This document shows positions 22,401 through 43,300 of a DNA stretch of 64,000 nucleotides, piece by piece (position 1 is the stretch's first letter; each line of letters begins with the position of its first letter). Location: NCBI RefSeq assembly GCF_035083965.1, contig NC_089724.1, forward strand, positions 26,546,974 through 26,610,973, in the 5' to 3' direction. A program made the translations under genes and the position numbers. This DNA comes from Branchiostoma lanceolatum. Lineage: Eukaryota; Chordata; Leptocardii; Amphioxiformes; Branchiostomatidae. Under the pieces are notes generated by a model that saw nothing but the letters and a program-made list of their open reading frames with translations, searched no databases and was not told the DNA's origin.

Positions 22401-23460
22401 AGTTAATAATAGAACTGCCTGTTGTGGCGTTTGCGCGGAGGGAATGAGGAATTGCTTGATGTATACTACAGTAATGTCTTCAGTAGTGTTGTTGGAAAGG
22501 AATTGATGGAAAGGGTTGGAAGTTTGGGTGCGAAATTATGTGGAAGAAGAATTTGTAGGTTGGTGAAGGAGGCCTGGAGAAGAAGTGACGTCTACTTGGA
22601 GAACTGGATCTGTTGTTCTTTGGAGGGCACATGGGGTCGTGTGAGGAAAGGTTGAGTTTCTGTTGAGTACATTGCATGGAGAGGGGGTATTGGTGTGGAA
22701 ATCTTAAAGTTGAAGATGCTAAGGATGAAAGTGTGGAAGGGATGGGGTGTTAGCTTCATATGGTATGCAGAGGAATTGTAAGTAAAAATGTGTATTGAGT
22801 TGAAGGAGTATTGAACCTTTGTATGTATTTGAAGGAAGAGAAGATGTCACCCCCTGTGGGTAGTGTGATGTTCCAACTTGGAAAGTTGGGGAAGTTTGAG
22901 TGACGTTAGGGCCTGCCTCATCAGTGATGTTATCTCTGCTGTAAGAGGCTGTACGCAGTGTTTGCCTGATGTTTTAGATTGTGTTTTCCGGAAGGAACCT
23001 TTTTTTTTTGCCTATGCTGATTTGGTGGTGTGCTGTGGAAGGATTTTGCTGTCTTGACGGATTGGAGGAGGACTGCTTGTAGACCAGGTAGGTGTTATAT
23101 TGTGTTGAGGGAGAGTTGAAGGTGTTTGTGTATTGAAGACGGTGTACATTGTTTGTTGGGTGGAAAAGACATGGACATTGAAATTCCTGGCAGTCGGGGA
23201 TAATTGTAGGATGGCAAAGATGTTATGAAAGGAACATGGGGTAATAGTAGTGTTGTTGCTAATTTAAAGATGCCATGCATGTTATAAATGGAATATGGGC
23301 TTTGCTGTGGTGAGGCAAGAAACTTCGGAGGGTGGGGAGCAGTACAAAATCGAGTTTGAAGTCTGGGTCTTGGGATCTATCTATCTTAGATGCAGGTTGT
23401 CTTTTTAAAGCATATGCAAAGTATGTATTAATTTTATATGTATTGTATGTTATGAAGTAG

Positions 23461-25797
23461 AACATTGTTGTCCATTGGATGTACTGAAAGACCAGACATG
23501 GGTAGAACCTTTGTGACCAGACCACGACAAATTGGGTGGCACCTGTAATGGGGTGGGAGTGACTGGTGTGTGTTACTGGCTGATTATAAGAAAACAACCT
23601 GTCTTGTTACTGTCTGGACAAGTGTCCCATTTCTAGGTCAGCTTCATGTGGACCAGTACTTGGGTAGTACCAGTGTGTAATTTGAGATGGATGGGAGAGA
23701 CAATGGGACAGACTGGATGTTTTGGGAGAATATACAAATGTATGCTGTGTGGAAGGTGAAGTGTTGTAAGTGAGATGACATTTGTTCTGTTCTTTTTTTA
23801 GGATTGTGGTGATAGTGTACAGGACAGCTGTGAGGGAGACCATCAAGTAGGAGGTGGTGGTTTGCAGTGGTGTCACTGTCTTTGGAGGTAAGGAGGAAGT
23901 GGAATATCTGTTTGTGTTGTGGTGAAGTGGAACATTGTGGTGGTAGAGGCTGGTAAGTTAGGGGGTGTAGTGTTGTGTGAAGAGGAGATGTTCTAAAGTG
24001 TAGAAGGCTGTGTTTTAAATGGCTGAATTGGTATTGTTTCAGGGTTGTGGTAGGTTTATTGCTGACTACGCTGGTGTTTGTAACAGTCCGGAGAACAAGG
24101 ATTGGTGTTGGCAGATCTGTTGGCCAGGCTTTGGAGTTGAAGAAGAGGTGGGTGGAGCTTGTGTGTAGTGGGAGTTTTGTGTGTGTGATGGTATCTGAAT
24201 ATGCTGGTGGAAAGGATGGTTTTGTCCTTGACTGTTGGGGGAACATTGTTGTCTATTGGATGTACTGAAAGACCAGACAAGGGTAGAACCTTTGTGACCA
24301 GACCACGACAAATTGGGTGGCACCTGTAATGGGGTGGGAGTGACTGGTGTGTGTTACTGGCTGATTATAAGAAAACAACCTGTCTTGTTACTGTCTGGAC
24401 AAGTGTCCCATTTCTAGATCAGCTTCATGTGGACCAGTACTTGGGTAGTACCAGTGTGTAATTTGAGATGGATGGGAGAGACAATGGGACAGACTGGATG
24501 TTCTGGGAGAATATACAAATGTATGCTGTGTGGAAGGTGAAGTGTTGTAAGTGAGATGACATTTGTTCTTTTCTTTTTTTAGGATTGTGGTGATAGTGTA
24601 CAGGACAGCTGTGAGGGAGACCATCAAGTAGGAGGTGGTGGTTTGCAGTGGTGTCACTGTCTTTGGAGGTAAGGAGGAAGTGGAATATCTGTTTGTGTTG
24701 TGGTGAAGTGGAACATTGTGGTGGTAGAGGCTGGTAAGTTAGGGGGTGTAGTGTTGTGTGAAGAGGAGATGTTCTAAAGTGTAGAAGGCTGTGTTTTAAA
24801 TGGCTGAATTGGTATTGTTTCAGGGTTGTGGTAGGTTTATTGCTGACTACGCTGGTGTTTGTAACAGTCCGGAGAACAAGGATTGGTGTTGGCAGATCTG
24901 TTGGCCAGGCTTTGGAGTTGAAGAAGAGGTGGGTGGAGCTTGTGTGTAGTGGGAGTTTTGTGTGTGTGATGGTATCTGAATATGCTGGTGGAAAGGATGG
25001 TTTTGTCCTTGACTGTTGGGGGAACATTGTTGTCTATTGGATGTACTGAAAGACAAGACAAGGGTAGAACCTTTGTGACCAGACCACGACAAATTGGGTG
25101 GCACCTGTAATGGGGTGGGAGTGACTGGTGTGTGTTACTGGCTGATTATAAGAAAACAACCTGTCTTGTTACTGTCTGGACAAGTGTCCCATTTCTAGAT
25201 CAGCTTCATGTGGACCAGTACTTGGGTAGTACCAGTGTGTAATTTGAGATGGATGGGAGAGACAATGGGACAGACTGGATGTTCTGGGAGAATATACAAA
25301 TGTATGCTGTGTGGAAGGTGAAGTGTTGTAAGTGAGATGACATTTGTTCTTTTCTTTTTGTAGGATTGTGGTGATAGTGTACAGGACAGCTGTGAGGGAG
25401 ACCATCAAGTAGGAGGTGGTGGTTTGCAGTGGTGTCACTGTCTTTGGAGGTAAGGAGGAAGTGGAATATCTGTTTGTGTTGTGGTGAAGTGGAACATTGT
25501 GGTGGTAGAGGCTGGTAAGTTAGGGGGTGTAGTGTTGTGTGAAGAGGAGATGGTCTAAAGTGTAGAAGGCTGTGTTTTAAATGGCTGAATTGGTATTGTT
25601 TCAGGGTTGTGGTAGGTTTATTGCTGACTACGCTGGTGTTTGTAACAGTCCGGAGAACAAGGATTGGTGTTGGCAGATCTGTTGGCCAGGCTTTGGAGTT
25701 GAAGAAGAGGTGGGTGAAGCTTGTGTGTAGTGGGAGTTTTGTGTGTGTGATGGTATGTGAATATGCTGGTGGAAAGGATGGTTTTGTCCTTGACTGC
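23461..25797 (+). repeat. Three tandem 781-bp units in the transposon 5' region
   Basis: Units begin at 23461, 24242 and 25023 with AACATTGTTGTC(C/T)ATTGG, and the spacing is exactly 781 bp. They differ at only a handful of positions that I noticed, so the duplication is recent. Each unit has good-looking splice signals: CTTTTTTTAG acceptor, GAG/GTAAGG donor, TTGTTTCAG acceptor. These surround two short stretches with cysteine-rich open frames. The plus strand is G/T-rich. The long minus-strand open frames here are H/T/P/S-rich and look like a consequence of composition. Near-identical tandem copies may be miscounted by assembly. Confidence 0.95.
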
Positions 25798-27125
25798 TGT
25801 AGATAATTGTGTTATAGTGAAGGTATTATGTCGTATATAGTGGTGTGAGCATCAGGAGTGAGGACGTTTTGTTGACTATGATGTGAATGCTATGATATTT
25901 GTTGGTGCTGCAGCAGGCAGGTTGCTATTGATGGGGGGAGAAGGATTACAATGTGTTGGAAGTAGTGGTGAAGGAGGTGGACTTAGGTGAGAATGATGAT
26001 GTTGGCACGGGTGGCAACTGTTAGCTTCAAGGGCAGCTTTTCTATCTGTGTCACAGTTTTTTGGCTGCAACGGGCATAGTAAGTGCAGTTGGCTTGACAG
26101 TTGTGTGTAGAGTGAGGAAGGGTAGTACCAGTGTGTAATTTGAGATGGATGTGACAGACAATGGGACAGACTGGATGTACTGGGAGAATATGTGCTGTGT
26201 GGAAGGTGAAGTGTGTAAGTGAGATGAACATTTGTTCTTTTCTTTTTTTAGGATTGTGGTGATAGTGTACAGGACAGCTGTGAGGGAGACCATCAAGTAG
26301 GAGGTGGTGGTTTGCAGTGCTGTCACTGTCTTTGGAGGTAAGGAGGAAGTGGAATATCTGTTTGTGTTGTGGTGAAGTGGAACATTGTGGTGGTAGAGGC
26401 TGGTAAGTTAGGGGGTGTAGTGTTGTATGAAGAGGAGATGGTCTAAAGTGTAGAAGGCTGTGTTTTAAATGGCTGAATTGGTATTGTTTCAGGGTTGTGG
26501 TAGGTTTACTGCTGACTACCTGGTGTTTGTAACAGTCCGGAGTACAACGATTGGTGTTGGCATATCTGGTGGCCAGGCTTTGGAGTTGAAGAAGAGGTGG
26601 GTGAAGCTTGTGTGTAGTGGGAGTTTTGTGTGTATGAATGCTGGTTTTGTCCTTGCGTCAGTAAGTGAAGAAGAGGCATTGAGGTCATGATTCATTATTC
26701 AAGAAGAACACATGTATTGGCGTTGACTGTTGTAGATAATTGTGTAATATTGAAGGTATATGTTGTAGTGGTGTGCCAGGATCAGGAGTGAGGATGTATT
26801 GCAGTATGATGTGAATGCTATGATGTTTGTTAGAAGGTGCTGGATGCAGGTTTGTAATGATGGAGGGAGATGTATTTCAATGTGTTGGAATTAGTGGTGA
26901 AGGAGGTGGACTTAGTGTGAATTATGATTGGGCATGGGTGTCACTAAGTGTTGTATTTGTGATGTGTTGATGATGTGGAATGTTCATTTCTTCTGGTGGA
27001 AGAGGGTGGAGGTAATGTCAGGTACTTCACTGAGTACTTTGTCTGGGTTGTCTGTACCTGTTAGCTTCAATGATAGCTTTTTTGTCAGTGTCACAGTGGT
27101 ATAGCTGTATATTATCTGGTGTGCA
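25798..27125 (+). repeat. Diverged fourth unit (~933 bp) and partial fifth unit
   Basis: GACTG(C/T)TGTAGATAATTGTG occurs at 25792 and again at 26725, an offset of 933 bp. After a 5' part not found in the 781-bp units, the fourth unit resumes the same order from about 26120 (GTACCAGTGTGTAATTTGAG) to 26680. It contains small deletions that shift reading frames, for example in the GACTAC(G)CTGG stretch near 26515. The partial fifth unit runs to about 27.1 kb and includes a TGTTAGCTTCAA block shared with the fourth. Confidence 0.85.
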
Positions 27126-27241
27126 TAGCATATATGCATCTAGATATATAGTTGTGAAAATCGAAATGGATGTGGGTAAGTGTGTGTGGATGTTTCTGGT
27201 GAATCTGTGAGGTTGTGTACTTTTGTACAGATCTGAGTGTC

Positions 27242-28057
27242 ATGCCCATAGATTGTGATGGTCATGGTTTGAAGTGGGGTCCATTGTTTCCAACAGATAT
27301 GGCAAGTGCTGGGGTGGAGCACCGAGTGGTGCAATGTTGCTGTCTGGCAACGTTGAGTGAGGAGAACGCAGTGCCAGCTGATGCAAGCCTGCCCCCGGAT
27401 TTGGTGGGGAGTACACCTGCCTTGTATGATGAGTGGTGTACAGAGGGTGTTCTGACCTTGTGGAAAAAAGCAGGTTGTGTTGAGGATTGGAGTGTGCCTT
27501 GGGATGATCTGGGGATGACGGCTACAGTACAGTATGATGACTATGGTGTTTACGCGGTAGCGTCTGGTTTTGTGACTACAGACATGGAAGTTATGGGGCT
27601 GTGTTTCAAAGGTGGTGACAATGATTACCTGTACGTCAAGTTGCCAGGGAGTCTGTCAGACTACCCAAGCATAGCAGATATTGTGTCATTTCTGCAGGCG
27701 GAGGCAAGGGTCCATATTAGTATGGACGGAGTTGACCTTGAGGAGTCATGTGTAAGGTTACACTGTTATGTGAGGGATCCATGGTGCTGGAGTTATCCTC
27801 TCTGTGCTCATTATAAGTACAAGGGAGATGTTGGCAGGCTGTCAGAGGTCTTGAAGTATGGACAGGCTGTGCAGAGTTTAGCTGGTTATCAGCCATTCAT
27901 GTCTTTCGAGAGGCCTTTTGGTACTCTGTCACTCGAGTGGGAAGACCATTGGCAGGATTATGATGTGGAAGAGGCAGTGTTCCCGCCGTTGATGTGTATG
28001 GTTGGAGTGTTCGAGCTGGGTCGGATGCCTGAACCTGCTGGGCTGTGGGATGCATGA
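27242..28057 (+). CDS. Unidentified 272-residue protein upstream of the Helentron replicase
   Basis: The first ATG of this open frame is at 27242; the frame is open from 27203. I do not recognise the product. It is acidic, rich in Trp, Tyr, Cys and Asp, with no membrane segment. It has motifs such as WSVPWDDLGMTATVQYDDYG, CVRLHCYVRDPWCWSYPLC and LEWEDHWQDYDVEE. It could be a complete accessory protein of the transposon or the 3' exon of a spliced N-terminal extension of the replicase. A good acceptor (TTTTGTACAG at about 27223-27232) lies just before its ATG. It stops 137 bp before the replicase ATG and is in a different frame. Its base composition (G/T-rich plus strand) matches the rest of the element. 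Unlike most transposon relics nearby it has no internal stop, which argues that it is coding. Confidence 0.6.
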   Translation: MPIDCDGHGLKWGPLFPTDMASAGVEHRVVQCCCLATLSEENAVPADASLPPDLVGSTPALYDEWCTEGVLTLWKKAGCVEDWSVPWDDLGMTATVQYDDYGVYAVASGFVTTDMEVMGLCFKGGDNDYLYVKLPGSLSDYPSIADIVSFLQAEARVHISMDGVDLEESCVRLHCYVRDPWCWSYPLCAHYKYKGDVGRLSEVLKYGQAVQSLAGYQPFMSFERPFGTLSLEWEDHWQDYDVEEAVFPPLMCMVGVFELGRMPEPAGLWDA

Positions 28058-28077
28058 ATTATGTGCATTGTTGGAAG

Positions 28078-28144
28078 GTGAGTACAGACTTAGTGTAGGT
28101 GTTCTTTTCTTCATTATGTCCTTTGTTTTGTGTTGTCTTTGCAG
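28078..28144 (+). other. Possible 67-bp intron before the replicase ORF
   Basis: GAAG/gtgagtac at 28077/28078 is a near-ideal donor and TTGTCTTTGCAG ending at 28144 a near-ideal acceptor. The donor is phase 1 in the frame open around 28002-28077, and the acceptor is phase 1 in the replicase frame, so the two join without a stop. That upstream frame is not the frame of the 27242-28057 ORF. Splicing would therefore give the replicase an alternative N-terminus rather than simply fuse the two ORFs. Confidence 0.45.
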
Positions 28145-28194
28145 GGTTTGGAGTGTTGAGTACAAGAACGTGCAGGGCAGGTCATCCAACTGAC

Positions 28195-31100
28195 ATGGAG
28201 ACCTTGGAAGCTGATGGGGTAGAGGTAACAGGGTTTAGAGAGGGAGGAGGTTTCCTCTTCACACCCATTACCAGGGAGGACCAGGCGAAGTTAGCACGTA
28301 GGGTGAACATTCCTGTTCGAGGATTACCTCCTTTTGGACATGGCAACATTGCGTTGCAAGGTCCTGTAAAGCACAGTAAGATGGTTGGGGATGGGTCATG
28401 TTTTTACCGCTGCATAAGTTATCTGATCACTGGTGTGCAAAGTTATCATGCAGATGTGCGTAGGTTTGTAACTGCACATATGCAAGCAGTGGATGCTGAG
28501 GTGTATGAAATGTGGTTGCCTGATGGTGTGTCGATAGGACAGTACTTTCATGAAAGACGTCCGGAGCATCTAGACACATGGGCAACGGATGTAGAGATCT
28601 TTGCAACTTCGCATTGTTTGGGTTTACCAATTTTTGTATACAGCAAGTGGGGAGATAGGGGGGGATGGAAGTGGCAAAAGTATTTTGACGATAGAGGTGC
28701 TGTGTTAGATAGTGAGCAAGCGTTGTACATTGATAACATACATGAGGTTCACTATGATGTAGTGACAGCTGTGAAAGCCTCTGAAGGAGATAAGAGGAAG
28801 ACGGGTATGTTGCAAGGAAAGGAGGAGCAGTGGAAGAAGGTTAAACGAGATCGAGAGCGGAAACGTTACTGGTTGGAGGAGAACGTGGCTGAAAGGAAGA
28901 AAGCACAACAGAAGAGGCGATACCAGGTGGAGCCACAACATGCACAGGCCAAGAAGGAGAAACAGAAGACACGGTATGAGAAGGAGCCACAACATGCACA
29001 GGCAAAGAAGGAGAAACAGAAGACACGGTATGAGAAGGAGCCACAATTTGCACAGGCCAAGAGAGATACCGTGAGAAGGCTGATGAGGACACGCTATCAG
29101 GATAAGGTAGCTGCCCAGGCTAAAAAAGATCAGGAGAAACTGCGCTACCAGGGGGACCCAGAACATGCACAGGCCAAGAAGGAGAAACAGAAGACACGGT
29201 ACGAGAAGGAGCCACAATTTGCACAGGCCAAGAGAGATACCGTGAGAAGGCTGATGAGGACACGCTATCAGGATAAGGTAGCTGCCCAGGCTAAAAAAGA
29301 TCAGGAGAAACTGCGCTACCAGGGGGACCCAGAACATGCACAGGCCAAGAAGGAGAAACAGAAGGCACGGTATGAGAAGGAGCCACAACATGCACAGGCA
29401 AAGAAGGAGAAACAAAAGACACGGTATGAGAAGGAGCCACAACATGCACAGGCAAAGAAGGAGAAACAGAAGGCACGTTACAGGGAAGATGTGGAGCATG
29501 CAGAGGGTAAAAGACAGGCGCGTAGGATGCGCTACAAGAAGGAGAAGGATGATGTGTTGGCTAGTATGGAGCAAGGTGAAGTATTGGCAGGGACAGCAGA
29601 GTCTGCGAGAAGTAAAATTCCTGCAGGGGGACATGGAGAGACTGGTAGTGTGCAGAAAGCTATAAGGAAGTTTCAGCTGGAATGCCAGAAGGGGTTAGTA
29701 TATGTATGTACCGTGTGCATTAAAGTTTTCTTTCGTAACCAGGTGGTTACTTGTGACAGGAGTAAGTATCCTGATGCAGTGAAGTTCTGTTTGACTGGTA
29801 ACTATGTGCATAGATGTACTGAAGACTGTACGAAACTGCCATGTCCTTTGTTGGAATGTTTTGGGAAGGAATGGATATGTCACACTTGCCGAAGTAACTT
29901 GAATAGGAGGAAAATACCAGCACAGGCTCAGGTGAACAAGATGTGTGTGCCTGACATTCCTCCTGAGCTGGCATGTTTGAACACTCTTGAGGCACAGTTG
30001 ATAGCTCCAAGACTTGCGTTCATGAAGGTAACCGCTTTACCAAGAGGTGGTCAAAAAGGTGTGCATGGAGCAGTCATATGTGTGCCTGCAGATGTTCGTG
30101 AAACGCAGTCTATTCTTCCGAGGATGCCTACTGAGGCCCAGTTTGTAAAAGTGAAATTGAAGAGGAAGTTGGAATACAGTGGCCATGTCATGTACCGGCA
30201 GATTAGCCCATTGCGGATTGACCTGGCTCTGCAGTACCTCAGTGAAAGCAATGTACATTATAAGGATAAAACCATCCTATCTGATTGGGCTGTGGTATGG
30301 AGAGAAGAAGATGGAGTAATGAAGGATGGTGAGAATTTGTCAGAGAAAGAAGATAATGAAGATGACAGAGCAGGAGGGATAGTGGAGAGTATTGGAAGAG
30401 ATTGTGAGCAAAAGGTTGCAAGGTGCGGTGACTTCATGGAAGTAGATGAGCTGGATGATGTTCTACGTGGCATGAAGGTGACGGAAGTCATGGAGGAATT
30501 GGAGGAACCAGAGGAAGATGATTTGTACAGCAGGTTGCGTGGGGTTGTACATGACACATGTCTGCAACCAGTTGATATCGGGCAGCACTATCTGGACCAT
30601 TATGATGAACTTGTACTGTGTGTGGCACCTGGAGAAGGGAAGAGGCCAATGTCAGTGTTTAAGGACATGGGAGGTGAAGCAATGTGCTTTCCAGTGCAGT
30701 TCCCTACAGGGGAAGGTTCGTTCACTGATGATCGGGACATTCGCATCACACCGAGTCAGTATTTTAAGGCGCGTCTGTTTAGTGCCGATGCTCGATTTGC
30801 ACGTGATACCAGTTATATATTCTATGCTCAGTTTGTCAATGAGCTACATTTCATTCAGTCTAATATTTCAATCTCTATGCGTAAAGGCTCAGCTGTTACA
30901 GCAGGCGGCCGGACCATTTCTGCGGAAATGCTGTCCAACAAAGAGGATGTGAAGGAAATTATGAAGTCAGATGAAGGTTATAGGTTTCTCCAGCCAATTA
31001 GAGGCACCCCACAGTACTGGGATCGGACACTGAAAGATCTTTTCGGTATGATAAGACAGCTCGGTTTGCCCACTTTCTTCTGTACCTTTTCCGCAGCAGA

Positions 31101-34100
31101 TTTGCGATGGACAGAAGTCCTAGAGTCAATTCGTGGAGGAAATGGTGGAGTTGCAGTTGGTGATTTATCATGGGAGGAACGTTGTAACATTTTAAGAAGC
31201 AACCCCGTTACTGCTGCACGGATGTTTGATCACCGTGTCAGGTTGTTCTATCAACATGTCATTCTGTCTCCTAGTAAGCCAATAGGAGAGGTGGTCGATT
31301 TCTTCCATCGCGTGGAGTTTCAGATGCGCGGCTCGCCTCACATTCACTGTTTGTTTTGGGTGAAAGATGCGCCTAAGTTGAAGGAGAACTCTGAGGAGGA
31401 GGTATGTGCGTTTGTAGATAGGTACATTTCCGCTCAGCTTCCGAATCGGCAGACAGACAAAGAGTTGTACGACATAGTAACAGAGGTGAACATGCATCGC
31501 AAGGGTCATACACAATCATGCAAGAAAGGAGGCAAGTTGTGTAGGTATGGGTTTCCCAAACCTCCAGTAAAAGAGACATTTGTATGTGTGCCTGAGGTGA
31601 AGGATGATGCTGATTCAACAGCCATGGCTGGAAGACAGGCTGACGCTAAAGTGCTCCTCCAGAAAGTGTTTGATGTGTTGAATGGCAAGGTGGAGCTTGC
31701 AACATGCAGTACTAATGACATTTTAAAAGAGGCTCAGGTCAGCAGCGAGCAATTTTGTGAAGCTTTAAACCTGGTGGCAAGTAGACAGCAGGTGATGCTC
31801 CAACGTGACCCTAGTGACCTTTGGGTCAACAATTATAATCCGCATTTATTGAGGGCATGGAATGCAAATATGGATATCCAGTATGTGGTTGATCCCTACA
31901 GTTGTGCCAAGTACATTGTGTCCTACATAAGTAAGGCAGAAAGAGAGATGGGGAAGCTGCTGAAAGAAGCACAGAAGGAGGCTAGGGAAGGCAATGAAGA
32001 TGTAGTGAATGAAATGCGGAAAGTTGGAAGTGTGTACCTAACCCATAGGGAAGTGTCTGCCCAGGAGTCGGTGTATAGAGTCGGCAGTCTGAAGTTGAAG
32101 GAGTGTTCGAGGCAAGTAATATTCATTCCCACTGATGAGAAGGCAAGTCGTTTGTCAAAGCCTTTGGCAACCATCCAGAAACTTGCATCAGCTGGAAATG
32201 TTGATGATGGAAGTATTTGGATGCCAAACATTGTTGATAGATACCGTGCTATCCCACAGCAGGACCCTTTAGGTGCGATGAGTCTTGCTGAGTTTGTGTC
32301 AGAATACCGTGTAGTTAGCTCGACAACCGAAGGAGGTGATGGCAGTCAGTCGTGTGGGCGAGCTGTCAAGTATCTGTTACGTGATAATCTTGGTGTTGTG
32401 CAAAAGCGTACAAAATCTAAACCTGCTGTCATTCGCTTTGCAAAGTTTTCCAAGGAGAAAGAGCCTGAGCGTTATTATGCAAATTTATTGAAGTTATATT
32501 TGCCCCACTACTCTGACAGAGACTTGAAGCCACCACCTTATGGAACGTATGAGGACTTCTACACCTGTGGGACAGTATCGTTGTTGGGTGGTGAAGATTC
32601 TGTCAGGGTGTGTGATATCGTGGAGAAGGAGAAGTGTAAGTTTGAAGGCCATGTGGACCATGTGGAGCAGGCCCGTGAAGACCTGGAGAAGAATGTTGAT
32701 GTGGAAGATGCGTGGGCGCAAATATTGCCTGATGTACAGGAAGATATGCATGCTGCCTCTAAAGAGCAGGAAGTGATAGGAAGGGAAGAGAGTGAGGATG
32801 AGACAGAAGAAGACATTCCTGATCTTGCACAACGTCCAAAATCGAAGGATGAGCATTTCACGTTACAGAAGTGCCAGGTACAGATGACCAGGGAAACTGC
32901 TGTTAGGCTCATGCAGTCGCTTAATTCCAAGCAGAAGGAGGTGTTCTACTTTGTGCGTGATTGGTGTTTGAAAGTAGTACAAGGGAAGCGACCTGATCCG
33001 TTTCATGTTTTTGTCACGGGTGGGGGTGGTACCGGGAAAAGTCACCTGATCAAATGCATATCATATATGGCATCCCAACTTTTGCAGCCAACACAGGAAA
33101 ATCCGGACAAAGTCTGCGTTGTCCTAACAGCTCCCACGGGAACAGCTGCCTTCAACATTGGAGGAAGTACAGTCCACCACGCGTTTCATGTAGGACGACT
33201 CCAGGGTATGAAATATCAGCCTTTGTCCGAGAGCACCTTGAATGCGTTGAGGGCCGAATATGAAAGTCTGAAAATTGTTGTCATTGACGAAGTGTCCATG
33301 GTGGATAAGAAGCTGATGTCCACAGTGCACGGACGGTTGGTGCAACTGTGCCAAGGGCGGCCTGATGCACGGTTTGGCAACGTCAGTATTCTGGCAGTAG
33401 GTGATATGTTTCAGATTCCTCCAGTGAAAGGGCAAAGTCTGCACAAGGCAGGAAAGGGTGACATCTTTCCCTTGTGGCATGGAGTTTTCCAAGTGTGTGA
33501 GTTGACAGAGATTATGAGGCAGAGAGATGATGTTGCCTTTGCTCAGCTGTTAAATAGACTGAGGGTAAAGAGCAAGAGCCAGAAACTTTCTGAGGACGAT
33601 GATCGAACATTGTTGTCCAGGGTGTTGTCTGTTGACTTTTCATCTGACCAATATCCGAAAGATGTGCTACATATCTTTGCGACCAATATCTTAGTTGCTC
33701 AGCATAATGACAAAATGTTGAAGATAAGATGTGCGACTGTGATGACCTTGGAAGCTACAGACTTTCAGAAAAATGCAAGTACAGGTGCTCTGAACAAGAT
33801 GAAGAGTATTGTCAAAGGAGGACCAGATGACTTACCAAATGTCTTTAGTGTTGGTGTCGGTGCACGGGTCATGCTGTCCAGAAATGTGGATGTGGAGGAT
33901 GGTCTGGTGAATGGAGCTTTTGGAACAGTGACAGGTGTGTCTATTGGAGAGGGTAATAAACCAGCTGTAGTGTTTGTGACATTTGACAACTCAAGGGTTG
34001 GTGTAGTAGCAAGGCAGAAAAATGTTGTGCGTGAAGAACAGCATGTGAATTCTGTTGCTATACATCCAATGGAGGATACATTGAAGTCGCATAGTAACGT

Positions 34101-35079
34101 CAGGAGATACCAGGTGCCTTTGAAGCTGGCATGGGCCTGCACAGTACATAAAGTACAGGGCCTGACCGTTGATGCTGCAGTGGTGTGTATGAGGAAGATG
34201 TTTTTATCGGGGATGTCATATGTAGCACTTAGCAGGGTTCGCAGTCTAGGTGGACTTTACCTTACTGAGTACAATCAGGAGGGCATCTACTGCAATGAGG
34301 ATGTGCAAGAGGCTTTGGAAGGCATGAGCCAGTTTGAGTACTGTTACAACCCATTTCAAGAGGTGTCTGCACATGACGGTGTAAAAATTGTGCATCACAA
34401 TACCGAAGGACTCGCAAATCACCTGAAGAGTCTGAAGAGCAGCTGTTTACTTGAAGCTGATGTCCTGTGTTTGACGGAAACCTGGCTGTTTGGAGATGGA
34501 CACAAGCATGTTCAGTTGGAGGAGTATACGATGTTTCACAGGAACCGACTGAGTGATGATACGGGTGACAGTGTGTTAGGAACTGTGAGAAGCTGTCACG
34601 GAGGAGTGGCAATATATGTTCGGAAGACACTGAAGTGTCAGGAAGTAGCGTTGCCAGCTGACACCAAGTTGGAATGTGTGGCTGTGCATGTGTCACTTGG
34701 ATGGCTGGAAACGCTGATTTTAGTCATGTATCGGGCTCCACACGAGAAGAAAGTGAACTTTATATCTAAAGTAGACAAAGTGTTGGACTATGTGTGCAAG
34801 GTGGACAGAGATACTACAATCATACTTGGTGATTTCAATGAGAACCTGTTGGGTTCTGAAGACAGCCAGGCAATGAAATCATTCCTGAAGACACATGGGT
34901 ATGTGCAGGTAATTGAGGACCCATCTACTGCGAAAGGGACTCTTCTAGATCATATTTACATGTCATCAGTAGTGCCATTAGTGAAGAGTGGGGTCATTCA
35001 GACTTTCTACAGTTATCATGATGCTGTTTATTGTATGTTGTCTGAGGGAGCAGTAGAGGGGCTTGAAGATGGTCACTAA
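28195..35079 (+). CDS. Helentron replicase-helicase: OTU, Rep (HUH-Y2), PIF1-like helicase, EEP endonuclease
   Basis: An intact 2294-residue protein from the first in-frame ATG. An OTU cysteine-protease domain comes first (D66, C69 in GDGSCFYR; H186 in EVHYDVV). Then a basic repeat tract (about 231-456) and a cysteine cluster (CTVC at 505-508 to CHTC). The Helitron replication-initiator domain follows, with HUH motif H1049/H1051 (GSPHIHCLFW) and two tyrosines Y1240 and Y1244 (KYIVSYISK). A PIF1/RecD-like helicase comes next, with Walker A GGGGTGKS 1609-1616, Walker B IDE 1697-1699, VHKVQG 1984-1989 and ALSRVRS. The C-terminal endonuclease/exonuclease/phosphatase domain has N2069, E2095, GDFN 2212-2215, D2252/H2253 and H2275/D2276. 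In this family the protein nicks one strand, stays linked through tyrosine and drives rolling-circle transfer. All these key residues are present and there are no stops, so the copy may be active or recently active. OTU plus EEP domains indicate the Helentron branch. Confidence 0.95.
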   Translation: METLEADGVEVTGFREGGGFLFTPITREDQAKLARRVNIPVRGLPPFGHGNIALQGPVKHSKMVGDGSCFYRCISYLITGVQSYHADVRRFVTAHMQAVDAEVYEMWLPDGVSIGQYFHERRPEHLDTWATDVEIFATSHCLGLPIFVYSKWGDRGGWKWQKYFDDRGAVLDSEQALYIDNIHEVHYDVVTAVKASEGDKRKTGMLQGKEEQWKKVKRDRERKRYWLEENVAERKKAQQKRRYQVEPQHAQAKKEKQKTRYEKEPQHAQAKKEKQKTRYEKEPQFAQAKRDTVRRLMRTRYQDKVAAQAKKDQEKLRYQGDPEHAQAKKEKQKTRYEKEPQFAQAKRDTVRRLMRTRYQDKVAAQAKKDQEKLRYQGDPEHAQAKKEKQKARYEKEPQHAQAKKEKQKTRYEKEPQHAQAKKEKQKARYREDVEHAEGKRQARRMRYKKEKDDVLASMEQGEVLAGTAESARSKIPAGGHGETGSVQKAIRKFQLECQKGLVYVCTVCIKVFFRNQVVTCDRSKYPDAVKFCLTGNYVHRCTEDCTKLPCPLLECFGKEWICHTCRSNLNRRKIPAQAQVNKMCVPDIPPELACLNTLEAQLIAPRLAFMKVTALPRGGQKGVHGAVICVPADVRETQSILPRMPTEAQFVKVKLKRKLEYSGHVMYRQISPLRIDLALQYLSESNVHYKDKTILSDWAVVWREEDGVMKDGENLSEKEDNEDDRAGGIVESIGRDCEQKVARCGDFMEVDELDDVLRGMKVTEVMEELEEPEEDDLYSRLRGVVHDTCLQPVDIGQHYLDHYDELVLCVAPGEGKRPMSVFKDMGGEAMCFPVQFPTGEGSFTDDRDIRITPSQYFKARLFSADARFARDTSYIFYAQFVNELHFIQSNISISMRKGSAVTAGGRTISAEMLSNKEDVKEIMKSDEGYRFLQPIRGTPQYWDRTLKDLFGMIRQLGLPTFFCTFSAADLRWTEVLESIRGGNGGVAVGDLSWEERCNILRSNPVTAARMFDHRVRLFYQHVILSPSKPIGEVVDFFHRVEFQMRGSPHIHCLFWVKDAPKLKENSEEEVCAFVDRYISAQLPNRQTDKELYDIVTEVNMHRKGHTQSCKKGGKLCRYGFPKPPVKETFVCVPEVKDDADSTAMAGRQADAKVLLQKVFDVLNGKVELATCSTNDILKEAQVSSEQFCEALNLVASRQQVMLQRDPSDLWVNNYNPHLLRAWNANMDIQYVVDPYSCAKYIVSYISKAEREMGKLLKEAQKEAREGNEDVVNEMRKVGSVYLTHREVSAQESVYRVGSLKLKECSRQVIFIPTDEKASRLSKPLATIQKLASAGNVDDGSIWMPNIVDRYRAIPQQDPLGAMSLAEFVSEYRVVSSTTEGGDGSQSCGRAVKYLLRDNLGVVQKRTKSKPAVIRFAKFSKEKEPERYYANLLKLYLPHYSDRDLKPPPYGTYEDFYTCGTVSLLGGEDSVRVCDIVEKEKCKFEGHVDHVEQAREDLEKNVDVEDAWAQILPDVQEDMHAASKEQEVIGREESEDETEEDIPDLAQRPKSKDEHFTLQKCQVQMTRETAVRLMQSLNSKQKEVFYFVRDWCLKVVQGKRPDPFHVFVTGGGGTGKSHLIKCISYMASQLLQPTQENPDKVCVVLTAPTGTAAFNIGGSTVHHAFHVGRLQGMKYQPLSESTLNALRAEYESLKIVVIDEVSMVDKKLMSTVHGRLVQLCQGRPDARFGNVSILAVGDMFQIPPVKGQSLHKAGKGDIFPLWHGVFQVCELTEIMRQRDDVAFAQLLNRLRVKSKSQKLSEDDDRTLLSRVLSVDFSSDQYPKDVLHIFATNILVAQHNDKMLKIRCATVMTLEATDFQKNASTGALNKMKSIVKGGPDDLPNVFSVGVGARVMLSRNVDVEDGLVNGAFGTVTGVSIGEGNKPAVVFVTFDNSRVGVVARQKNVVREEQHVNSVAIHPMEDTLKSHSNVRRYQVPLKLAWACTVHKVQGLTVDAAVVCMRKMFLSGMSYVALSRVRSLGGLYLTEYNQEGIYCNEDVQEALEGMSQFEYCYNPFQEVSAHDGVKIVHHNTEGLANHLKSLKSSCLLEADVLCLTETWLFGDGHKHVQLEEYTMFHRNRLSDDTGDSVLGTVRSCHGGVAIYVRKTLKCQEVALPADTKLECVAVHVSLGWLETLILVMYRAPHEKKVNFISKVDKVLDYVCKVDRDTTIILGDFNENLLGSEDSQAMKSFLKTHGYVQVIEDPSTAKGTLLDHIYMSSVVPLVKSGVIQTFYSYHDAVYCMLSEGAVEGLEDGH
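28880..29560 (+). repeat. In-frame coding repeat of 18 residues (54 bp) within the replicase
   Basis: The tract is built from copies of the 18-residue unit AKKEKQKTRYEKEPQHAQ and a variant with KRDTVRRLMRTRYQDKVAAQ. Two 180-bp (60-residue) blocks, at about 29031 and 29211, are nearly identical, so the tract grew by unequal duplication. It lies between the OTU domain and the zinc-binding cysteines and is strongly basic, probably helical. It may act as a nucleic-acid-binding linker (inference). Confidence 0.9.
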
Positions 35080-36110
35080 GCACATGGTCCATGCTATTAA
35101 CCCATGCCACATCGCCAGCCATGTGCAGAAGGGCAGAAAATGTATATGATGGGGAAAGGGCCCAGGTGTTGGTAAATACTCTGTCCATATAGGGTAGGCT
35201 GTTGTTTTGAAAGTACAATGCATATGCTTTATGATACCTATGGCTAATATACCATTTCAATCTGTACAGGTGCAAGGGTTGACGTACCGTGGTGACTTCT
35301 ACAGTAGTTGGAAGACCCTTATGTACATGTAGTTATAGGTTGGAAGTTTTTTTTTGGTATACATAAAGTGTTGTGCTGTTCCTTGAGAACTGAGGTTGTA
35401 CTACTTGTTATTGTTGTTGTTGTTTTTGTTGTTGTGCTGTAGCTTGTACGGTAAGAAAATACATAATTTATGGCCAGGTGTAGTCACCTTTGCTATACAG
35501 CATGCACATGAGGACCGCATTAGCGTAGTATTAGCATAAACCAGGTGTTGAGGTCTGCTTTTTCGTCTGTAGCCTGATTTATGGCCAGGTGTGTTTGACC
35601 TACATCTGAAATATGCCAGGTAGAAGGGTCCACGTACCATGATGGTGACTTCTAGAGTAGTTCGAAGAGCCTTTTGTAGTTCTTAGTACAAAGCGATATT
35701 TTTGTATACATAAAGTGTAGTTTTGTTAGTTCTTGTACTTGTATTGTAATGTTCACATTGGTGACTAGTAGCCTAGGTGGGAGAGGTAATGTTGACATTG
35801 GTGACTTCTAGAGTAGTTGGAAAAGCCTTTTGTAGTTGTTGGTTGGAAGCAATATTTTTGTATACATAAAGTGTAGTGCAACAAGAGCACCTTGGGCAGA
35901 AGAGATATTTTTGTTTACATAAAGTGTAGTGCAAGAGGAGCACTTTGGCAGAAGAGATATTTTGTGACTACTTCTTTAATTGTAATGTTTACATGAAGTG
36001 TAGTGCAACAGGAGATGCCAAAGTGCATGTAGAGTCCTTTGTTGTCCTGTATCGGAATTAAAGTTACTTGAGTTGCACTACTTGTTGTTGTTGTGTTGTT
36101 TTTGTTATTG
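35080..36110 (+). repeat. Helentron 3' flank with internal direct repeats
   Basis: No gene. A block GGTGACTTCTAGAGTAGTT, then TTTTTGTATACATAAAGTG, occurs near 35291, 35645 and 35800. ACTACTTGTTGTTGTTG-type T/G-rich tracts followed by GCTGTAGCTTGTACGGTAAG occur at about 35400-35455 and 36075-36130. A degenerate copy of the 127-bp array unit (GTACGGTAAG, TATGGCCAGGTGT, CACCTTT) is already recognisable at 35446-35620, about 0.5 kb before the array proper. Confidence 0.75.
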
Positions 36111-38310
36111 TGCTGTAGCTTGTACGGTAAGGAAATACATGATATATGGCCAGATGTTTTCACCTTTCCTCAAGGTACCTTCATCTGAAATATGACATCC
36201 GCAGCTTTTACAGTAACGGAAATACAACTTTCTGCATAAATTATGGAAATGAGGTCCTCAGTAGCACAATATATGTCCAGGTTTGTTGACTTTTCCATAA
36301 AGGTACCGTTATCTGAAATATGACATCCGCAGCTTTCACGGTAAGAAAAATACAAGTTTGTACATAAATCATGCACCTGACGTCCTCATTAGTATAATAT
36401 ATGGCCAGGTGTGCTCACCTTTCCTCAAGGAACCTTCATCTGAAATATGACCTCTGCAGCTTTTACGGTAAGGAAAATACAGCTTTCTGCATAAATTATG
36501 CAAAATACAGCTTTCTGCATAAATTATGCAAATGAAGTCCTCTTAAGCATAACATATGGGCAGGTGTGTTCACCTGTCCTTAAGGTACCTTCATCTGAAA
36601 TATGACATCTGCAGCTTTTACGGCAAGGAAAATACAACTTTCTGCATAAATTATGCAAAGGAGGTCCTCTTCAGCATAAAATATGGGCAGGCGTGTTCAC
36701 CTTTCCTCAAGGTACCTTCATCTCAAATATGACATCCGCAGCTTTTACGGTAAGGGAAATATAAGTTTGAACATAAATTATGCACATGAGATCCTCATTA
36801 GCATAAAATATGGGCAGGTGTGTTGACCTTTCCTAAAGGTACCTCCTTCTCAAATATGACATCCTCAGATTTTACGGTAAGGGAAATATAAGTTTCTGCA
36901 TAAATTATGCAAATGAGGTCCTCATTAGCATAACATATGGCCAGGTGTGTTGACCTTTCCTAAAGGTACCTCCTTGTCAAATATGACATCCCCAGCTTTT
37001 ACGGTAAGGGAAATATAAGTTTCTGCATAAATTATGCAAACGAGGTCCTCATTAGCATAACATATGGCCAGGTGTGTTCACCTTTCCTTAAGGTACCTCC
37101 ATCTGAAATATGACATCTGCAGCTTTAACGGTAAGGGAATTATAGGTTTCTGCATAAATTATGCAAATGAGGTCCTCATTAGCATAACATATGGCCATGT
37201 GTGTTCACCTTTCCTTAAGGTACCTCCATCTCAAATATGACATCCGCAGCTTGTACGGTAAGGGAAATAAAGGTTTCTGCATACATTATGCAAATGAGGT
37301 CCTCATTAGCATAATATATGGCCAGGTGTGTTCACCTTTCCTAAAGGTACCTCCTTCTCAAATATGACATCCTCAGCTTTCACGGTAAGGGAAATATAAG
37401 TTTGTGCATAAATTATGCAAATGAGGTCCTCATTACCATAACATATGGCCAGGTGTGTTGACCTTTCCTAAAGGTACCTCCTTCTCAAATATGACATCCG
37501 CAGCTTTTACGGTAAGGGAAATACAACTTTCTGCATAAATTATGCAAATGAGGTCCTCATTAGCATAACATATGGCCAGGTGTGTTCACCTTTCCTTAAG
37601 GTACCTCCATCTGAAATATGACATCTGCAGCTTTTACGGTAAGGGAAATAAAGGTTTCTGCATAAATTATGCAAATGAGGTCCTCATTAGCATAATATAT
37701 GGCCAGGTGTGTTCACCTTTCCTAAAGGTACCTCCTTCTCAAATATGACATCCGCAGCTTTTACGGTAAGGGAAATGTAAGTTTCTGCATAAATTATGCA
37801 AATGAGGTCCTCATTAGCATAACATATCGCCAGGTGTGTTCACCTTTCCTTAAGGTACCTCCATCTCAAATATGACATCCGCAGCTTGTACGGCAAGGGA
37901 AATATAGGTTTCTGCATAAATTATGCAAATGAGGTCCTCATTAGCATAATATATGGCCAGGTGTGTTCACCTTTCCTTAAGGTACCTTCATGTGAAATAT
38001 GACATCCACAGCTTTTACGGTAAGGGAAATATAAGTTTCCGCATAAATTATGCAAATGAGCTCCTCATCACCATAATATATGGCCAGGTGTGTTCACCTT
38101 TCCTTAAGCTACCTCCATGTCAAATATGATATACGTAGCTTTTACGGTAAGGGAAATACAAGTTTCTGCATAAATTATGGAAATGAGGTCCTCATTAGCA
38201 TAATTTATTGTCAGGTGAACTCACCTTTTCTTCAGGTACCTACATCTTACATAATAAAACATCCGTACATTGTAACATAAGGTACAAGAACAATAACTTT
38301 CTGCAATACC
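36110..38310. repeat. 127-bp tandem array, about 17 units
   Basis: The landmark TAAATTATG falls at 36520, 36647, 36774, 36901, 37028, 37155, 37282, 37409, 37536, 37663, 37790, 37917, 38044 and 38171: an exact 127-bp period across 13 intervals. One 28-bp internal duplication sits near 36492-36520, and two earlier units start at 36237 and 36365. Each unit contains the imperfect palindrome GCATAAATTATGC, in most units the octamer ATGCAAAT, the inverted repeat AGGTGTGTTCACCT, a GGTACC site and a GCTTTTACGGTAAGG block. There is no indel drift apart from the 28-bp event. Not a CRISPR: there are no unique spacers. Confidence 0.97.
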
Positions 38311-40387
38311 ATTAGTAGACCTGCTACCGCACATCTACTTGGTTTTTGGCAGAAGAAGAAGAAAGAAGAAGAAAGAAGAAGAAGAAGAACAGGCAAGCAA
38401 AAACAGTATATTCCCTCTCTGGAGGGGAATATAATGAACGAATAAAGAACCAATGAACGAAGGTGCAAATGAACGAATGAATGAATGGATGGATGGATGA
38501 ACGAATATGTCTGTATCTGTATCTAAAGTATATAGCCGGTATAAACGTCATTAGGCGTAACACACGAATGAGAGTGAACTAATAAATGAGGGAATGAGCA
38601 AGTACTGTTGACGAAGGCTGGACATTCAGGTAAACAATATCTAAAGACAAATCCATCTCAACAACTGAACATGGCACGGAGATGGCTTTCAGATGGCTGG
38701 AGTGACGTCCATCACTTTAGAAATTAAATATCTTCCATAAGGAGGTCTTCCAATAGGTTTCTGTTGAAGGGGGCGGGGTTAGACGAAGGACTCACGAAGA
38801 AAAGGTCACCGTAAAGATCCCGGTAAAGAACCGACGGAAGAAAAAGTAGGACGGCAGTAGAAAACTTTGCGTTGTTACCTTGCCTAGTGACAATTACCAG
38901 GGACTCATTGGCTGTTTAAAGCCACAGTACGGCAGGTTTTGGCAACAAGTAACTCTTTAAATTCAAAGTTTCTAGTCTGTTCTAAATGATGACATTGTTT
39001 TACATCATAGGAGCGAATGGAAAGTATCGGTTTCCACTTTGTGTGCATGGTAAACCGAGAGTGGTCTTGTGAGTCACCTGATTCTCTGCTAGAAAGGAAT
39101 TCAATAGTGCACAGGCCTATACAGGTGTCACAGCTACCTAACCGACTTGTCATTTCAACGCCATAGGCGTGACGGTCCACAACACCGAACGGTCGAACGC
39201 AATGTTGCTGAACAGCACTCTTAGAGTTAAATTCTTGAGATAAATCAAACTTTTGTGTTGTGGCTAGTGTGCATTTATGTGAACAATGTTAATATAGACT
39301 GGCCTAGAGTGCTTTCTTGTGATCTATTTTTTCTTGTTTCAAATTATTGATCGAGGGTATCGGGATCCGTTTATTCACGTTTGATCTCAAAGCCTGACTG
39401 CTATGATTTTGACGCAGGTGTGCCTCACTATATACAAAATACGGTATCTCGCGTACACTGATCCCTCACCAAGCTTCCAGAAAGTACCACAAGGGGAATG
39501 ATATTAAAGTACTCCTGAGGTACATTGTTTGATATCATTGTGCCTGGGATAGTATTGTATGGTTAGCCCTTGCACAACTATTGAAACATCCCAATAAAAT
39601 AAATCGGTCATGAAAAGATATAAGTCATATAAGCCACATGCTGTTCAGACCCAAAATCTAGGGCAATGGGAGCTTTTCTAGTTTCACTGGGACACCAAAA
39701 GGTCCAAAAGACGCTATTTTTTCGATGTCACCGTTGCATGTTGTGCGTAATTTTTTGATAGACCGCTCATTTTCATCAAGGAGGTTAAAGCTCCTTGGTC
39801 TTATAAAATAATTGTCACTTTCTATTCGTTCTTTTTCCAATTGGTTAAAAACAGTTGGCATTGGATTTGTGTATGTCGTCTAGACATTTTGTGTCATTGC
39901 ATCATCCTAAAACTGTGCTTTCTTTGTCCGAAAAAAATCCCATCGTAAAACAGGGCCCATTCAACCCTTACCTAGCACGTGCACAGCGCGTGATCATGCT
40001 TCCTTCACGTGAACACTCCGCCGCAGGGCTTGTCACGTCTCGGATTTCATTACTTCGATTTTTCGCGCCAAATGGTCGAGTCCATTATAAAGGGATCATG
40101 AATGTCAATGAGGATAAATTGTACTCATTTATCTTCATAAATTTCCATAAACTGAACAATTAATACATTTATACTTATATTAATAATTGTTTTATGTACA
40201 TTTTTGACTCTTTTTAAATATGACAGACTGTCAAAAATGTATTGATAAAATTTTGGTCCCCTTATGTCAAGAGTGCATCATTCTCAAGCGACCCATAACA
40301 AGACAAAACCCGGCGAAGACACGTTGCTTCACAACCTTCTCTCCTGGACACCTTAGGGCCCGCACAGAAGACATATCTCGTAAGAAA
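38311..40387. other. Intergenic region upstream of the ammonium transporter
   Basis: Contains a GAA/AGA-rich tract at 38348-38390, GAATGAATGGATG-type tetranucleotides near 38440-38500, and a copy of the GTAGCCGGTATA dispersed repeat at about 38506-38563. The small open frames here (for example minus 39658-39861) have no recognisable domain and no supporting splice structure. The 3' end of this interval holds the transporter promoter. Confidence 0.5.
39976..40091 (+). promoter_or_regulatory. Candidate promoter of the ammonium transporter gene: two E-boxes and TATA
   Basis: Two canonical CACGTG E-boxes at 39976-39981 and 40006-40011 are exactly 30 bp apart; the second is in a palindromic TTCACGTGAA. 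They are followed by TATAAA at 40086-40091, about 300 bp upstream of the start codon. This is what the sequence shows; use as a promoter is inferred from position. Confidence 0.45.
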
Positions 40388-43300
40388 ATGTCAAGTAACG
40401 CAACCAACACCACCGAGTCGCCGGAACCTTCCCTGGAGCAACAGCTGGTCGCTCTGATGGGGAATTCCGACGAGTTTTTCCTTCTTATGATGGGCTGTTT
40501 CGTCTTTCGTGAGTACAAAATCATAATTTTCTTTTTACGTCATTCATTTATTCCTGTACAAAATTAAAAGCTATTTCCTTGTCATAGTGTTACTTGATAA
40601 GGGATATGAAATCTGTTTTGACTTTCAGAAATTTCTTGTCTACAATTTGGATTTCAGCATATGTTTGTGCAATGTTTTGTTTAGGGAAAACGCGCGCTTT
40701 TTAATGAGCCACCATCTGGGCGAAGGCGGAATCAAAATATTTTGAATTTTAGTTTGAATTATCAAATACACTCTGTCGTGGAACTGAATGGTAAGCGTGT
40801 CTATTCGCACTTTCAATTATGTTTTAACATACTTTACGTTATTGCTTTACCCTATTGAAAAGTCTCCAAACTTTATTAAAAGTGCAGTCTTAAAAGAAAT
40901 GCTATGTACTCTAATATCGATACTAAAGTTATGATATGTAACGTTATATCCAATGTAAATTGATCTTCATGTGAAGAAATGCTGGATATCTGAGCACAAA
41001 CGCCAAGTTAGTATCAAGGAGGTTATATAGACCTTTACTAAGATAACCTCCTTGTTTGGAGAGAGGGGCGGCGCTGTTAGAGAGCGGGACTGTCGGACAG
41101 TGTTTGCATATCGGGTTACATCTTGTGAATAGATTTTTGTGAATAGCTGATGGGCCCGCAACTATAGTACCGTAAGAGCGTTAGGTTTAATTACGTCCAA
41201 AGTATTAATGCGAAAAGAGGATTAACGTTATATGTCAAAAGACGATTGTCACAGCACATGAAATAATGAACGGAAAGTGTCTGGAAATATCCAGAAAAGT
41301 AGTCTGACTCTGGGTAAAAAGTTGTACTGTAGTCTAGACTTTGGTGCCCCTTGCCTTCGGAATCAAGACTACTGTGATTACAATTCAAGGCAGTATTCTT
41401 TTGTTAGACAATAGGAATTCAAATACAGAATAGGACAAAAGCTGTACCTTAGCTACAGACAATTTTCTAGTGTGGTTGTGATGGTAATGGTTAAGCCTTT
41501 TGTGACTGGATAGTGGCCATGCTTTGCTTGATTATTGATACTGAGATGAGTTTGCTTATTTATATGACTTCCAGTACCAAGCTCTTAATTGCTTTCTAAC
41601 TGGGTTTTAATGGGCAATAACTCCTACAGTGCCCTTTTTATGTTACACCTGCTACTTTTTATTGGAAGAAAAAATGTATTAAGCCCCTAGGACTTGTGGA
41701 TAAAATTCAAAAGGATTTTGACCGAATTGTCACTTTTGTTTTGATAGGTGAAATGTAGAAATATATCCACAGGGGTTTGTAATAATGTTCTACCCAACAA
41801 CAGCTTAATATCCATTTCCACTGAATGCCATTCACTGAGAGCCGAGCTAAGCTGACCAGTTCTTCAGTACAGTCTGCGGAAAATATCATTTTTGTGGAAT
41901 CTTTCTGTCAATTGGAATTGAACCTGTCTAAAATATCATTTCATTTTCCATCAATCTATGTTATATTGTATCGACACCTCAACTTGGAAACATGTTGTGA
42001 GTGGATCCTTTTCAAGGCAACCACCTGTCCAACGTGACTGATTTTCCTCGATCCCCCTGGTGGTGCCTTGGGCAAGATTTGACTGTACTTAGCCATTAAA
42101 ACCTTTTATGAAAAATTGCAATTAAAGATATGATTGTGTCAATTTGTCAATACTGGTCTGACAGCATTTTTTGGCCTGAGGTGTGTCTATCTTTTCAGGG
42201 ATGATTAAAGTTAGTTGTCAGGGTGTCAGGCAGTGTTTTGTCTGGATGGGCATTTAACTTGTAAGTCACAATGATGGATGGTACATGAACAGGCCAGGAA
42301 TTTTTGCTTCCTCAGCAGGTTTTTACCATCTGATTCTGAGCTATCAGAACTGGGGCTGGCTGACCAGATGTTGGTATGTAGTAGCTAAAGCCTAAATGGG
42401 CTTAAATTAATTCAGGTTTGCATAGCAAAACCTTTGTTGGATCCGTTGGCATGTGTGGTGGCTGCCATCTTGAATTATGATGTCATAGGGTAGCCATACC
42501 AATTTTTTGGGAGGGGTGTCTTTTGGAGTCGCAAGCGTTCTCTTTTCAAGAAATTGGCACACAACTATCACACATTCAACTCAAATAAAAATTCAATACC
42601 AATTCATATTTATAAAAAGACGCCGTAATCGCTAAACTAACATAGCAAACCTGAAGTATATGAAGCACAAATACTTAACTCTAGTTTGCCAAATATTTAA
42701 GTTTAACCCTTTAGCACACTTACGTAGCCATTGGCACCCAATTCCCTATTGGTTACAGAGTTCGGCAGCATGGAGAAGGAACTGAGCTACATGCAACATT
42801 ATGAGAAAATCTCTGACCTAATTTCATTCCTCTACTTAAGAAACTATGTCTTAAATCTGGGTTATTATTTATAATCTCATAATTATGCCAAATGCTTTAT
42901 AAACTGATCAGATCCAAAAGTTTCACCCCGGATTTTTTGAAGAACATTGGAGCAGTGTTCAATAGTTCATGATAGAGTGGTATGGCACCATCAGTCCTCT
43001 GTCTTGAGAAAATATGCCATTACTGGAAAATATAAGAAGGCTTGGCACAACCTTTTCCATTCCAGAGGGCAATCTTAACCATTTTGTCTCAGAATGCAGC
43101 TGGATTTTGTCCGAAAACAGTCTCAGTTCCCTGCACTCCACTGTGCAAAAACTGGAAGAATCTTTGGATGCCTTTTTTTGTTCGTCATCGGATCTTGAAT
43201 CTAATTCATTACGAAGTTTGTCGAACTCATTTTGGATTTTGCAGCATATGTATACCAATGTTTTTGACAATTGTTTTCACTGTACATGTCTTTACAGTTA

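Follow-up and report, generated by a model that had tools for sequence, protein, structure and literature searches.

The window analysed here, a stretch of 64,000 nucleotides of Branchiostoma lanceolatum DNA, contains a long open reading frame (ORF) that we identify, with a probability of roughly 0.9, as a Helentron gene. The best explanation that the sequence offers for its surroundings is an autonomous Helentron, from the subgroup of Helitron rolling-circle transposons that carries an EEP domain, with an unbroken main gene (Table 1). The frame is open from position 28099, and its first ATG lies at 28195. Its length is far above chance, as the longest open frame in simulated sequence reached at most 321 codons with the composition of the region and at most 435 codons with that of the left noncoding region (second-order Markov sequences of 20 kb, both strands, read from stop to stop, 50 simulations per composition). 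An earlier note on this DNA had described 2294 residues without a stop at 28195-35079, and we verified the coordinates, the length, and the open frame. Its description of an intact Helentron is likewise backed by the domains, the serine of motif II, and the unbroken frame.

Pfam listed 14 families at E-values up to 1, and 7 of these scored above their own curated cut-off: Helitron_like_N, PIF1, DUF6570, AAA_19, OTU, Exo_endo_phos, and Pif1_2B. The order within the single frame is OTU, charged in-frame repeats, DUF6570, Rep, helicase, and EEP. String searches located the OTU motifs DGSC at residue 66 (Cys) and HYD at residue 186 (His); the best PDB match of this domain by phmmer was OTUD1, with an E-value of 0.019. 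Zinc-finger-like motifs in the N-terminal part are a Helentron trait; here, residues 481-601 include 13 Cys, and no zinc-finger family was present among the Pfam matches. In the Rep domain, motif II reads EFQMRGSPHIH at residue 1041, with the HUH histidines kept and a Ser between Gly and Pro. Such a serine is diagnostic of Helentrons in the available text of PMC4067079, where the signature near motif II is given as F/Y, then w/l/y/k, then R. The protein reads F-H-R at this place, the outer residues fitting and the middle His being outside the listed set.

The tyrosines Y1240 and Y1244 named in the earlier note are both present and form, with K1247, the sole Y...Y..K of the protein by string search. 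When viral contigs (IMG/VR) were searched with the motif-II pattern, 16 loci (L003-L018) were fetched, 14 of which encoded a prokaryotic-type Rep with an RGAPHxH-like motif. Reps of this motif type, close to that of Helitrons, are distant kin discussed in PMC6213432. Those from the viral contigs are too distant and were therefore used for the tyrosine check alone: after L010 and L016 had been dropped, Y...Y..K was found in the downstream part of 3 of the 14 Reps, a set in which L007, L009, and L013 look alike. Further downstream, a Dda-like helicase PHROG matched residues 1502-2038 (E 9.2e-64), and the strings GGGGTGKS (1609), DEVSMV (1698), GDMFQIPP (1736), VHKVQGLT (1984), and ALSRVR (2011) confirmed the Walker A/B and C-terminal helicase motifs.

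The EEP endonuclease was the one domain in which the earlier description had to be corrected. Its motifs were located by string search at residues 2069 (NTEG), 2094 (TETW), 2179 (YRAP), 2212 (GDFNEN), and 2249 (TLLDHIY). The last motif, YSYHDAV (residues 2272-2278, positions 35008-35028), lies beyond the Pfam match, which ends at residue 2267; its His is kept and the preceding residue is Tyr. When E. coli ExoIII was compared with the PDB, Asp-His was seen in 5 of the 5 displayed alignments, among 55 matches, and these alignments cover 3 distinct proteins, ExoIII itself included. By our own reading of the motif, YSYHDAV would correspond to this Asp-His. All EEP catalytic residues had been said to be present, but the last motif (SYHD) has a Tyr where the ExoIII-family alignments have Asp. 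On account of this Tyr, the label "catalytically complete" goes too far. The Asp of the last EEP motif is of less importance than the His and its partner Asp, and the Tyr ahead of the His may be a trait of the Helentron family. The EEP domain gave no PDB match by phmmer at E-values up to 1 and only an unrelated methyltransferase at 1.2; its single-sequence AlphaFold model had a mean pLDDT of 35.7, too low for use.

Table 1 Features of the proposed Helentron and its main gene, with positions in the window
Feature	Position	Strand	Details
Whole Helentron, proposed	21601-38432	-	16.8 kb; structural 5' end at right
CTAG, proposed 3' end	21601-21604	-	followed by TTTT on minus strand
Hairpin near structural 3' end	21613-21628	.	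7-bp stem, 2-nt loop; reached by 13/1000 shuffles
3' subterminal inverted repeat	21633-21644	-	reads GGAGGGGAATAT on minus strand
G/T-rich plus strand	22420-36160	+	broken by A-rich coding repeat 28727-29476
781-bp tandem array	23460-26640	+	about 3.6-4 copies; register-matched parts 96-100% alike
ORF, 280 aa	27215-28057	+	first in-frame ATG at 27242; no family
Helentron protein ORF	28195-35079	+	2294 codons plus stop, no internal stop
OTU domain	28387-28758	+	Pfam residues 65-181, PF02338, E 2.7e-08
In-frame coding repeat, 54/171 bp	28907-29481	+	charged 18-residue units
DUF6570	29905-30276	+	Pfam residues 571-694; Cys-rich stretch directly ahead
Helitron Rep domain with HUH motif II	30760-31353	+	Helitron_like_N residues 856-1053
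Candidate catalytic tyrosines Y1240, Y1244	31912-31926	+	pattern only
PIF1-type helicase	32920-34242	+	PF05970, E 7.5e-21, PIF1 residues 1576-1779
EEP (AP-type) endonuclease	34396-35028	+	PF03372, E 1.8e-07 (above cut-off), residues 2068-2267
ATTAAA, possible poly(A) signal	36057-36062	+	sole A[A/T]TAAA hexamer reported in 34900-36160, plus strand
127-bp tandem array	36142-38247	+	about 14 main units
Structural 5' hairpin	38407-38433	.	9-bp stem, 9-nt loop; reached by 2/1000 shuffles
5' subterminal inverted repeat	38421-38432	-	reads ATATTCCCCTCC on minus strand

The combination of OTU, Rep, helicase, and EEP is already known in Helentrons. In the portions of PMC4067079 and PMC6431247 at hand, Helentrons carry, as here, Rep, a PIF1 helicase, and a C-terminal AP endonuclease in one protein, include OTU proteases in the group, and have the motif II serine; they also show subterminal inverted repeats, a 3' hairpin, and T-flanked insertion, for which the ends proposed below offer candidates. 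Compared with these descriptions, our copy differs in having OTU fused into the same ORF with no RPA found, and in its extra 280-aa ORF, its 781-bp array, and the Tyr of its last EEP motif. Its gene also runs antisense to the inferred polarity; one such case, Helentron-Da-40, is reported in the available text of PMC4067079. Proto-Helentron-Pi of Phytophthora, as outlined there, is likewise large (about 14 kb), with 5' TT, 3' CTAG, and additional ORFs, but lacks an endonuclease, and its insertions fall between A and T, whereas the present element has an EEP domain and T residues beside both proposed ends. Deubiquitinase-type domains are also found in the VTD/OTU Helentrons of Erven et al. 2022 (PMC9741609), among which, according to the portion available, 121 VTD Helitrons also have OTU; here, only OTU was detected by Pfam. 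The oyster Cg_HINE (PMC7492417) likewise has a short satellite-like array between terminal modules, but it is non-autonomous and, in the sections available, was not tied by its authors to autonomous partners, whereas here an array would lie within a coding copy. Canonical Helitrons have Leu in motif II, no EEP, a 5' TC end, and a 3' CTRR end, and insert between A and T; here, motif II has Ser, EEP is present, the proposed 5' end is not TC, and the proposed 3' CTAG fits CTRR. Searches of viral contigs with the whole protein, with its Rep stretch, helicase, and EEP, and with the 280-aa ORF found no relative, nor did a search of prokaryotic contigs with the Rep domain; an animal transposon is hardly expected in either collection. 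A tblastn search of phages with 467 residues of the Rep region gave no match.

We consider the element ends given in Table 1 (about 21,601-38,432) probable, together with a structural 5' end on the right, which makes the gene antisense to the polarity of the element. The two subterminal repeats form an exact 12-nt inverted match, a length also attained in 20 of 1000 dinucleotide shuffles of the 601-nt end regions; this and the other shuffle counts are post hoc, because the ends were located by inspection, on one copy. One arm of the 5' hairpin falls within the right repeat, and the 7-bp hairpin sits 4 nt outside the left one. When the opposite polarity was considered, the outer right 60 nt gave a 2-bp stem only, reached in 1000 of 1000 shuffles. 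The CTAG lies 8 nt beyond the left hairpin, and the background at such offsets is 0.024 of positions, compared with 0.160 for CTRR. On the minus strand, the right end reads CATT-ATATTCCCCTCC... and the left end ...hairpin-TTGCCATT-CTAG-TTTTCATTC, with TT and TTTT bordering the proposed ends; the element may include up to four flanking T (reaching 21597 and 38434), which leaves the junction uncertain by as much. Helentron insertion is described in the available text of PMC4067079 as occurring in a T-rich target with at least 2 T per side, and it leaves no duplication of the target. By the distances published there, the 3' hairpin, 12 nt from the proposed 3' end, is within the range of 8-35 nt, the left repeat, at 32-36 nt from the same end, falls short of 38-60 nt, and the right repeat lies 0-2 nt from the proposed 5' end, versus 2-4 nt. 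Both flanks contain sequence rich in tetranucleotides of the GAAT/GAAC/GGAT type that can be rejoined into one such tract, and we propose that the element inserted, flanked by T, into this tract.

Several other features lie between these ends. The 127-bp units compared in register (n = 13) are on average 91.0% alike (range 82.7-96.9%), and single-copy DNA just past the gene (35395-35494) is 89% alike to the start of this array (36072-36170). The consensus of its units at 36512-38247 contains a near-palindrome, TTATGCAAATGAGGTCCTCATTAGCATAA, with an octamer-like ATGCAAAT, and the array is a possible factor-binding array ahead of the transporter gene described below. The 280-aa ORF was matched by no entry of Pfam, PHROGs, or the PDB, and its single-sequence AlphaFold model (mean pLDDT 32.9) was too low for use. 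Its length is within chance for its composition (simulated longest frame: mean 252 codons, maximum 435). Its codon-position chi-square is 34.3, compared with maxima of 24.6 over 233 overlapping noncoding windows of the element and 22.7 over 560 flank windows, a signal that suggests a coding ORF. No known RNA family matched anywhere in the window.

The element has a marked strand asymmetry, with change points of composition at 22420 and 36161. Over about 4.7 kb of noncoding DNA (22.45-27.2 kb), the GC skew reaches about +0.54, with a G+T fraction of 0.65-0.67; past the gene, the values are +0.28 and 0.60, and the skew is near zero in the 127-bp array. The 46 flanking 1-kb windows range from -0.128 to +0.133 in GC skew, with G+T at most 0.536. 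Both outer ends, like the 127-bp array, are without the skew of the remaining element. Fourfold sites of the gene are poor in C (0.141 of 937), without a smooth gradient. APOBEC-type editing was rejected as the cause, because C depletion was not strongest in TC (plus/minus dinucleotide counts in 2350 nt of noncoding DNA: CC 25/222, AC 59/281, TC 62/200), and so was a pure C-to-T change, because G is raised too. The minus-strand ORFs of the skewed stretch were taken, as a group, for a by-product of composition. Among the literature matches listed for Helitron GC skew and for rolling-circle asymmetry or deamination, no paper on the subject was evident by title or start of abstract.

By analogy with the family, Rep would nick the element end via Y1240/Y1244 and the helicase would unwind the strand; a circular intermediate would then form and be inserted between T residues. 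EEP may assist in opening the target, and OTU may deubiquitinate host or element proteins. In a rough model of frame survival, in which 3.75% of substitutions create a stop and indels are assumed at 0.05, 0.1, or 0.2 per substitution, the chance of an unbroken frame is down to 5% at 0.50%, 0.32%, or 0.18% neutral divergence, respectively. As a neutral frame would break within about 0.2-0.5% divergence, either the copy is young or the frame is under selection; frame survival favours youth or continuing selection, without showing movement. Across the remaining window, positions 1-21400 and 38521-64000, a search at E-values up to 1e-5 with low-complexity filtering gave no further copy of the element. 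The earlier view of a live or very recent mover is drawn from intactness alone and is plausible, and we put recent or still possible movement at even odds.

The proposed ends have to be weighed against the possibility that the Helentron gene is real but its limits lie elsewhere, the repeat and hairpins being chance matches and the arrays or the skewed stretch being neighbouring DNA or other repeats. There is one copy, the statistics are post hoc, and control regions likewise contain inverted matches of 12-13 nt, an unrelated control pair giving two of 13 nt. In a wider search, a 13-nt match elsewhere (23406/35219) was longer than the 12-nt end match. The 127-bp array is also unskewed, and its unit resembles DNA near the gene over a short stretch only (33 nt, 85%). 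Such a misplacement nevertheless seems unlikely to us, as the three end features and the T-flanks give one polarity, with shuffle counts of 20, 2, and 13 of 1000, and as the 100 nt past the gene resemble the array start at 89%. For the strand asymmetry, long germline transcription of one unit (about 22.4-36.1 kb) competes with single-stranded replication intermediates and comes only a little short of even odds. The G/T excess is on the coding strand and stops about 100 nt past the ATTAAA. The strand inferred to be transferred is the minus strand, which is A/C-rich, the opposite of what single-stranded deamination predicts; in mitochondria, such deamination yields a G/T strand, the H-strand pattern, in the available part of PMC3269012. 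Against transcription, plus-strand poly(A) hexamers number 2 versus 5.00 expected, a difference that is not significant (30 of 300 shuffles were equally low), and fourfold sites lack a smooth gradient. Transcription-linked GC skew in ordinary genes amounts to a few per cent only, and a value of about +0.54 is very strong for this process.

An immobile Helentron relic that the host retains as a domesticated protein, with purifying selection acting on it, would account for the intact frame and the one copy in view, and it would fit a gene about 2 kb before the by-eye first exon of an ammonium-transporter gene; the lost Asp of the last EEP motif could then indicate that the endonuclease is not maintained as an active enzyme. 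However, every transposition domain and the proposed element ends are still there, whereas domestication usually retains a part, and we regard this explanation as very unlikely. The autonomous Helentron can also be taken further, as a still-mobile element of mixed build (EEP with a 3' CTAG) whose gene is antisense to the replication polarity and which is growing a satellite array of its own, with a strand composition that records a long single-stranded life or long germline transcription; this full combination appears improbable to us.

Unbroken autonomous Helentrons are of use, as stops and frameshifts often had to be corrected in published ones, according to the available text of PMC4067079. 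If the proposed ends hold, a satellite-like array would be tied directly to a coding Helentron, a connection that was out of reach in the available part of the oyster study (PMC7492417), and the strand skew would be a composition mark for studying the life cycle of the element.

The surroundings contain other genes and repeats. Ammonium-transporter exons (PF00909) were matched by 4 of the 7 downstream ORFs tried, all on the plus strand at 43036-52133, so that the transporter gene is a spliced one, as in a eukaryote and most likely an animal; by eye, a first exon is possible near 40.4 kb, some 2 kb past the element. A hairpin-like repeat at 14358-14514, with 69-nt arms that are 96% complementary, has kin near 43.6, 44.9, 51.7-51.9, and 62.3 kb and, from its sequence, looks like a MITE family. 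A dispersed 76-nt repeat, SINE-like by eye, is found at 20234-20309 and 45766-45841 (88% alike), and a degenerate tandem array with a spacing of about 88 nt lies at 2360-3249.
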